Shown here piece by piece: positions 31,509-64,000 of a DNA stretch of 64,000 nt. A program made the position numbers and the translations under genes. Source of the DNA: Blastococcus capsensis (GTDB lineage Bacteria > Actinomycetota > Actinomycetes > Mycobacteriales > Geodermatophilaceae); NCBI RefSeq assembly GCF_030165005.1, contig NZ_JASNNW010000020.1, positions 62,001 to 126,000 on the forward strand, read 5' to 3'. The notes under the pieces were generated by a model. It did no database searches. It was not told the origin of the DNA and saw only the letters and a list, made by a program, of their open reading frames with translations. Positions within the stretch are counted from its first letter, which is position 1, and the number at the start of each line of letters is the position of its first letter.

Positions 31509-32576
31509 GTGTCTGGCGCCAACGATCCCTACGACCCCAAGCAGGTCGCCGCGCTCTCGCCCGAGGCCCTCGACGACGCGGTGCGCGCCGCGCTCGAGGG
31601 ATTCGCCGCCGCCGGGAACCTGGAGGCGCTGGCCGCCGTCCGCCCGGCGCACCTCGGTGACCGCGCGCCGGTGCTCCTGGCGCGCCGGGAGCTCGGTGCG
31701 CTGCCGCCGGCCGCCCGGTCCGACGCCGGCAAGCGGGTGAATGCGGCCCGGGTGGCGGTCACCGACGCCTACGCCGCCCGGCTGGCCGAGCTGGAGGCGG
31801 AGCGCGATGCCCGCGTCCTGGCCGAGGAGCGGGTCGACGTCACGCTGCCGTGGGACCGCACCCCGCGCGGCGCCCGGCACCCGCTCACCACGCTGACCGA
31901 CCGGATCGCCGACATCTTCGTGGGCATGGGGTACGAGGTCGCCGACGGGCCGGAGCTCGAGGCCGAGTGGCTGAACTTCGACGCCCTCAACATCGGCCCC
32001 GACCACCCGTCGCGTTCGATGATGGACACGTTCTTCGTCGCGCCCGAGAACTCCGGCCTGGTGCTGCGCACGCACACCAGCCCGGTGCAGGCGCGCACGA
32101 TGCTCGACCGGCAGCCGCCGATCTACGTCGTCGCGCCCGGCCGGGTCTACCGGACCGACGAGCTCGACGCGACGCACCTGCCGGTGTTCCACCAGGTCGA
32201 GGGCCTCGCCGTCGACCGGGGGCTGACGATGGCACACCTGCGCGGCACGCTCGACCACCTGGCCCGGCAGCTGTTCGGCGCGGGCGCCCGCACCCGGTGG
32301 CGGCCGCACTTCTTCCCGTTCACCGAGCCGTCGGCGGAGTTCGACGTGTGGTTCCCCGAGCACCGCGACGGCCCGCAGTGGGTCGAGTGGGGCGGTTGCG
32401 GGATGGTCAACCCGCGGGTGCTGCGCGCCTGCGGCATCGACCCCGACGTCTACTCGGGCTTCGCCTTCGGCATGGGCATCGAGCGCGCGCTGCAGTTCCG
32501 GTCCGCGGTGTCGGACATGCACGACATCGCCGAGGCCGACGTCCGCTTCACCACGGCATTCGGGGTCGAGCAGTGA
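31509..32576 (+). CDS. pheS: Phenylalanyl-tRNA synthetase alpha subunit (intact copy)
   Basis: 355-residue catalytic alpha subunit of the alpha2-beta2 PheRS. An N-terminal coiled-coil (about 1-95) is followed by the class II core: [40 protein letters not shown] (motif 1 area), [33 protein letters not shown] (motif 2) and [15 protein letters not shown] (motif 3 near 320). GTG 31509 gives the usual length. pheT follows after 55 bp. The duplicated unit begins inside this gene at codon 286, so only this copy is complete. Confidence 0.97.
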
Positions 32577-32631
32577 ACGGTCGCGGTCCGACGAGGAAGG
32601 TCACCCCCGTGCCCGCTGGAGGAGTCGAGCA

Positions 32632-62613: not shown

Positions 62614-63282
62614 ATGAGCTCCGTCCCGTCGTCCTCGCCGGAGCCGGGCCACCTCGTCCGCTGGGAGGACCTGCTCGGGCCTGTCGACGTCGTGGCGCCC
62701 GGGCTGCTGGGCTGCTGGCTCGTGACCGACCGGCCGGACGGCAGGGTGGCGCTGCGGCTGACCGAGGTCGAGGCCTACTCCGGCGAGGGCATGGATCCCG
62801 CGGCGCACTCGCACGGCGGTCCGACCCCGCGCTCGGAGATCATGTTCGGCCCGCCGGGCCGGCTCTACGTCTACTTCAGCTACGGCGTGCACTGGTGCGC
62901 GAACGTCGTGGTCGGCCCGGAGGGGCGCGGGTCGGCGGTGCTCCTGCGGGCCGGCGAGGTCGTGGTGGGGGAGGAGCTGGTCCGCCGGCGCCGACCCGCC
63001 GCTCGCGCCGCCCGTGACCTGGCCCGGGGGCCGGCCCGGCTCACGCAGGCCCTGGGCATCGGCCCGGACGACCGGGGGTCCGACCTGCTCGATACCGGGA
63101 GCGACGTCCGGTTGCACCGGGGCGGACCCCCGGCCGGCGTGTCAGCGGGCCCCCGGGTCGGCATCACCAAGGCGACGGAGCTGCCGTGGCGGTTCTGGGA
63201 GACCGATGCCCGGTCGGTGAGCCCGTTCCGGGCGGGCGGCAAGCCGCGGCGCGGACGCGCCGGGCAGGATGGGCCCTCGTGA
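62614..63282 (+). CDS. mpg: 3-methyladenine DNA glycosylase (copy 2)
   Basis: Identical to 46448-47116. Confidence 0.92.
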
Positions 63283-64000
63283 GTGACGTCATCGACGACC
63301 TGCAGCGCCGTGGGCTGATCGCCCAGAGCACCGACGAGGCGGCCCTGCGCGCCCACCTCGCCGACGGGCCGATCACCTACTACTGCGGCTTCGACCCGAC
63401 TGCGCAGAGCCTGCACGTGGGTCACCTCGTGCAGTTCATGGTGTTGCGGGCTCTGCAGCGCGCCGGTCACCAGCCGATCGTCCTCGTCGGCGGGGCCACC
63501 GGGTTGATCGGTGACCCGCGGCCGTCGGCGGAACGCCAGCTCAACGCACCGGCCGTCGTCGCCGCCTGGGTGGAGAGCATCCGCCGCCAGGTGGCGCCCT
63601 TCCTGGAGCTGCCCGCCGAGGCCGACGGGCTCAGCGCCCCGATCTACGTGGACAACCTCGACTGGACCGCACAACTGTCGGCCATCGACTTCCTGCGGGG
63701 CCTGGGCAAGCACTTCCGGGTCGGCAAGATGCTGGCCAAGGAAGCCGTCTCCGCGCGGCTGAACTCCGAGGCCGGCATCAGCTACACCGAGTTCAGCTAC
63801 CAGATCCTCCAGGCCAACGACTACCTCGAGCTGTTCCGCAGGCACGGGGTCACGCTCCAGACCGGCGGCTCGGACCAGTGGGGGAATCTCACCGCCGGCA
63901 TCGACCTGATCCGCCGGACCGAGGCCGCCCCCGTGCACGCGCTGTCCACCCCGTTGGTCACCAAGTCCGACGGCACGAAGTTCGGGAAGTCCGAAGGCGG
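63279..64000 (+). CDS. tyrS: Tyrosyl-tRNA synthetase (copy 2, cut by window edge)
   Basis: The first 240 codons are identical to 47113 onwards, through the KFGKS loop; the S4 domain lies beyond the window. If the copy is complete, the gene ends at 64556 and the rRNA-like promoter recurs at 64632. Confidence 0.95.

Follow-up and report, generated by a model that had tools for sequence, protein, structure and literature searches.

Does the stretch of Blastococcus capsensis DNA analysed here carry a tandem duplication that existed in the sequenced cells, or a loop that an assembler walked twice? The 64,000-nucleotide stretch (the window) comprises positions 62,001-126,000 of the 126,730-base contig C8, in a draft of 51 contigs and 4,392,919 bases. 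Within it, a unit of 16,166 bp that begins inside pheS and ends in a ribosomal RNA (rRNA) leader downstream of tyrS is directly repeated head-to-tail (Table 1). We favour a spontaneous tandem duplication of this unit, real in the sequenced DNA of all or part of the culture and joined with at most 1 bp of homology, and assign this reading a probability of roughly 0.65.

When the window was compared with itself, 32366-47834 matched 48532-64000 with 0 mismatches over 15,469 bp, and no direct repeat of 31 bases was found at any other offset. C8 extends 730 bp beyond the window and completes the second copy there (window-equivalent 48532-64697); with this tail added, the copies are identical at 16,166 of 16,166 bp, and the perfect head-to-tail repeat announced in a preliminary description of this DNA is exact over the whole unit. 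The match between copies persists 1 bp past the unit, and C8 stops 32 bp later, within the rRNA leader. Frame and position analysis likewise places the breakpoints where they had been put before, 141 bp downstream of the tyrS stop (48390) and at pheS codon 286, the latter if pheS starts at GTG 31509. A 35-base pattern spanning the junction occurs once in the genome with up to 2 mismatches allowed. The locus thus shows the identical, direct, head-to-tail copies of a spontaneous tandem duplication, although a k-mer assembly would render any such copies identical, and a single novel junction, found once in the genome and absent from the 22 congeners compared.

A 300-base junction probe was searched in these 22 other genomes of the genus. 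Its pheS side matched in 22 of 22, and a match covering both sides of the junction was found in none of them; some matches to the leader (in G011, G018, G006 and others) overrun the junction point, by no more than 21 bases, and no single match continues into the pheS part. In 19 of the 22, the pheS side is followed 12.9-21.9 kb downstream by an rRNA leader, both being on one contig and strand. Among the remaining congeners, G018 and G019 have the sites on different contigs and G021 has no leader match, its sequence there being N. Across 112 genomes of the family, argH (E <= 1e-60) has two matches in the present genome (G000) only; 104 of the 111 others have one and seven have none, including G021, where 8000 of the 19,901 fetched bases are N. 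The relative closest by argH (G008, 95%) carries pheS-pheT-SDR-argCJBDFRH-mpg-tyrS collinearly on one contig, followed by a 16S gene, and its equivalents of the two breakpoints are 13.0 kb apart. Given the single copy in relatives and the collinearity of G008, the parental state is, on this comparative evidence, one copy.

How much the identity of the copies can tell depends on the type of assembly. A short-read assembly from a de Bruijn graph with k=127 is suggested for this draft by exact 127-bp overlaps between a number of contig ends: C9s/C50e, C49e/C35s, C2e/C15s, C45s/C22s, C33s/C30e and C24e/C13e, and also C28e, C31e and C32e, each with C21e (the comparison covered all contigs except C36, C38, C42, C43 and C44, which are all N). 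Other contig tips share other lengths (83, 95, 282-290, 300 or more). SPAdes leaves such k-length overlaps, and coverage decides whether it walks a loop; the rule by which it does so was not found in literature passages on it. The final 127 bases of C8 equal C5:37817-37943 and those of contig C5 recur in C14, upstream of its 16S gene; C8 would end where it does because the rRNA leader branches in the graph. Both copies would then be one graph edge walked twice, and the copy number of two an estimate. With one edge standing for both, identity arises by construction and says little on age or copy number. The earlier inference that the lack of any seen difference means a very recent event is therefore unsupported as argued, since a de Bruijn assembly builds such identity in. 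As far as compared, writing a long segment twice is no habit of this assembly: across part of the genome (the window and 41 fetched pieces; at least 98% identity over at least 250 bp), no match elsewhere was longer than 2,007 bp.

Several observations on the draft stand apart from this question. Contigs C28, C31 and C32 (L205, L206 and L207; 14.2, 11.9 and 11.3 kb) have an identical start of ~509 bp and an identical end of ~1,490 bp; above 200 bp, blastn found nothing else in common among them, and the shared end of C28 holds an ISL3-type transposase. The assembly yielded a single 16S gene (C14:123232-124750, inside a 507-kb contig), five short contigs being all N; the one-contig relative G008 has three 16S genes, and rRNA leaders form the ends of C5 and C8. 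C5 also carries an Actino-pnp RNA element (L012:748-833; Rfam RF01688, 52 bits, gathering score 47.7).

A de Bruijn misjoin requires a word of size k common to both sites. Homology at the join is 1 bp, and the longest word common to the breakpoint flanks is 9 bp and located off the join (flanks compared: 127 bp to either side of the pheS site; at the leader site, 127 bp upstream and the 32 bases available downstream). This supports the earlier view that an rRNA repeat by itself would not produce a join into pheS. C5 and the sequence just before the junction do have 95 bp in common; the 127-base word across the join would nevertheless have to contain bases specific to tyrS. With no shared word above 9 bp in the tested flanks, a repeat-driven misjoin at the rRNA leader was rejected and, from the sequence, appears unlikely. 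Because the breakpoints share no k-word, molecules or reads with the junction, whether true DNA or chimeric, very probably existed.

The same comparison bears on how such a junction could have formed. Homology of the kind that marks RecA or microhomology cases was not found at the join; end joining needs none. Repeats at the breakpoints were tried as a cause and rejected, as the shared 9-mer was matched or bettered in 281 of 5000 random draws, which is not significant, and a 6-bp inverted match was common (4068 of 5000; draws less than 200 bp apart were skipped yet counted within the 5000). Recombination between rRNA operons was rejected because pheS, on one side of the junction, is no rRNA sequence, and duplication mediated by an insertion sequence (IS) because no transposase was found among the scanned unit proteins (not every open reading frame was scanned). 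In the duplication that we favour, a DNA end just inside the rRNA leader would have been joined to pheS codon 286, giving a head-to-tail second copy. The joining would have been illegitimate, by Ku/LigD non-homologous end joining (NHEJ) or by a replication- or topoisomerase-type slip. Two Ku genes are present, at C3:42137-44069 (with a LigD-type ligase domain, above cut-off and ~0.5 kb after the Ku match) and at C39:29469-29969, so homology-free end joining is available to this genome. Direct orientation and short distance also fit a tandem duplication. Many reads would be expected to cross the junction, the dosage of pheT, the arg genes, mpg and tyrS would be raised, and homologous recombination between the copies could remove or amplify the unit. 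Events of this kind are documented elsewhere and described as frequent: earlier Salmonella data suggest that, in growing cultures, ~10% of the bacteria have a duplication of some kind (passages of PMC12607827), and at least one amplification was predicted in 191 of 2430 B. pertussis isolates (PMC8942028, in the portion consulted). Literature searches on tandem duplication by NHEJ/LigD junctions in mycobacteria, and on duplication in Blastococcus genome assemblies (SPAdes), found no paper.

Some of the evidence weighs against a real duplication. A 1-bp junction also resembles that of ligation chimeras, and excerpts of PMC3411829 give a deduced cut-off of 11 bp or more for true duplications in Salmonella. 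Standard short-read assembly detects such duplications poorly, according to part of PMC12607827, and one written out in full by a short-read assembly is unusual. A graph-edge end joined to itself is moreover an error described, in sections of PMC6736328, as a chimeric loop in RNA-seq, with something similar in multiple displacement amplification (MDA) data. In the main rival to a real tandem duplication, a few chimeric fragments linked the rRNA leader to pheS, the false edge was kept, and the 16-kb edge was walked twice before the rRNA branch. The k=127 overlaps agree with such an origin, as do the end of C8 at a branching repeat right after copy 2 and a 1-bp join that suits a ligation chimera; a chimeric loop as portrayed in that source would be expected to yield a contig just like C8, by linking the end of one edge to its start and walking it twice. 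C8 does have an edge end joined to its own start, and a true duplication would look alike. In ordinary genome data such edges usually have low coverage. A random chimera, however, would have no reason to link same-strand sites only 16 kb apart, and no second long case occurs in the pieces compared, which are part of the genome. We regard the chimeric loop as unlikely, if still the chief competitor.

The other alternatives accept the junction as real. It could derive from an excised 16-kb circle, or from an array of more than two copies, that was written as one extra copy; either would be expected to give the same single graph loop and would be indistinguishable in C8. No integrase, relaxase or replication gene was found among the scanned unit proteins, however, and this origin seems quite improbable to us. 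An old duplication maintained by selection is more improbable still. Only the gene content (arginine synthesis and synthetase genes) and the copied rRNA promoter speak for it, against which stand the lack of a junction-covering match in the 22 congeners, the single argH of the 104 further family genomes in which it matched, and the zero base differences between the copies, though the assembly could hide some.

The copied promoter was recognised by aligning the region downstream of tyrS in 20 relatives plus C5, the 20 being taken from the best 80 of 572 tyrS loci (mostly Blastococcus, plus other Geodermatophilaceae). A TTTGAC ... TAACTTTCTC promoter is conserved there, with L087 lacking TTTGAC and L067 lacking TAACTT by eye (1 of 20 relatives each). 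In the window its -35 element lies at 48466-48471 and its -10 element at 48489-48494, the latter ending 37 bp short of the junction. The motif rests on the alignment; scanning with a strict sigma-70 consensus gave no promoter at this place. A conserved TTGAGAACTCAACAG, which we take to be boxA-like, lies downstream of the break and thus outside the unit. In copy 2 the predicted rRNA promoter faces the final 70 codons of pheS, followed by pheT, so that, judged by the conserved motif, a promoter at the unit's end appears to point into the next copy. An open frame beginning at TTG 48500 continues into the pheS remnant; it was given no weight. The preliminary description of the unit's ends had their structure right but lacked the rRNA promoter, the pheS remnant and the end of C8 32 bp after copy 2.

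In a real duplication, copy-2 pheT and its neighbours may gain transcription from the copied rRNA promoter. That the duplication was selected for this reason is a stronger claim, which we consider improbable: end joining would have placed a copy of the rRNA promoter, lacking its boxA-like leader, ahead of a second pheT-SDR-...-arg-tyrS block, bringing the PheRS beta subunit, and perhaps later genes, under growth-rate-controlled rRNA transcription. A his-gene case of promoter capture is reportedly due to Anderson and Roth (1978). Promoter capture by tandem duplication, as treated in part of PMC11111574, which cites the his-gene case, is alike in that illegitimate joining places a promoter at the unit's end before the next copy; it differs in that neither selection nor a silent gene is known in the present case and the promoter is a predicted rRNA-operon promoter.

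Table 1. Features of the duplicated region (window coordinates).
Feature	Position	Copy 2	Strand	Basis or remark
pheS, intact, single	31509-32576		+	likely start GTG 31509; open frame, translation, tblastn
Duplicated unit, copy 1	32366-48531		+	16,166 bp; exact match at offset 16,166
pheT	32632-35094	48798-51260	+	TIGR00472, 578.9 bits (cut-off 402.65)
SDR-family oxidoreductase	35087-35953	51253-52119	+	PF00106, 156.6 bits
STAS-domain (anti-sigma antagonist-like) protein	36502-37230	52668-53396	-	PF01740, 32.5 bits (cut-off 22.6)
GAF-SpoIIE (PP2C-type) phosphatase	37061-38782	53227-54948	+	PF07228, 143.3 bits; PF01590, 42.5 bits
argC, argJ, argB, argD, argF, argR, argH	38806-46440	54972-62606	+	NCBIfam models above cut-offs
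mpg, 3-methyladenine DNA glycosylase	46448-47116	62614-63282	+	NF002003, PF02245
tyrS	47020-48390	begins in window at 63186	+	TIGR00234, 355 bits
Predicted conserved rRNA-operon promoter, TTGACC - 17 bp - TAACTT	48466-48494		+	alignment
18-base palindromic stem-loop of rRNA leader	48509-48526			5 bp before junction; similar stems in several aligned relatives
Novel junction	48531-48532			rRNA leader fused to pheS codon 286; 1-bp microhomology (C)
Copy 2, first 15,469 bp	48532-64000		+	remaining 697 bp = C8:126001-126697
pheS 3' remnant, ~70 codons	48532-48742		+	heads copy 2; frame analysis

Profile scans support the genes previously named in the unit, with pheS resting on its frame and on congeners; the SDR and STAS genes had gone unlisted. 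By tblastn, pheS has 88-94% identity in four congeners (split in two pieces in G016; matches below 36% identity were left unlisted). The start of the STAS protein is uncertain and its open reading frame overlaps the next gene, the GAF-SpoIIE phosphatase, in which PAS_4 appears below cut-off only. Read from GTG 47020, tyrS overlaps mpg by 97 bp; its true start may be GTG 47113, as the alignments with many tyrS loci begin only near residue 32. Neither the STAS nor the GAF-SpoIIE gene (36000-38800) has a match above 35% identity in the fetched regions of G006, G008, G016 and G021, where the distance between the SDR gene and argC is below 0.5 kb in three and 4.4 kb in G006. From this spacing and the absent matches, 36000-38800 looks like a variable site into which a regulatory pair was inserted. 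An Rfam scan of the window gave 0 matches and ARAGORN 0 tRNA.

Under either reading, real or chimeric, the event is a known kind of thing. Duplications in Salmonella, Pseudomonas, Bordetella pertussis and M. tuberculosis, as presented in passages of PMC12607827, PMC8942028 and PMC3411829, resemble it as sporadic, kilobase-scale head-to-tail repeats that are absent from relatives and poorly seen in short-read assemblies. Such spontaneous duplications often join rRNA operons, IS elements (PMC13423834, in part) or microhomologies of at least 11 bp, whereas the join here has 1 bp.

In practical terms, the way in which a k-mer assembly is built makes repeated copies identical, and their identity gives no date for an event. 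The numbers of genes in this draft (two argR, two tyrS and so on) are untrustworthy before a check of read depth. If the duplication is true, it would be a recent one with a base-exact junction at the head of an rRNA operon, in a GC-rich bacterium with Ku and a LigD-type ligase, and would show how a duplication can place a copied rRNA promoter before other genes.
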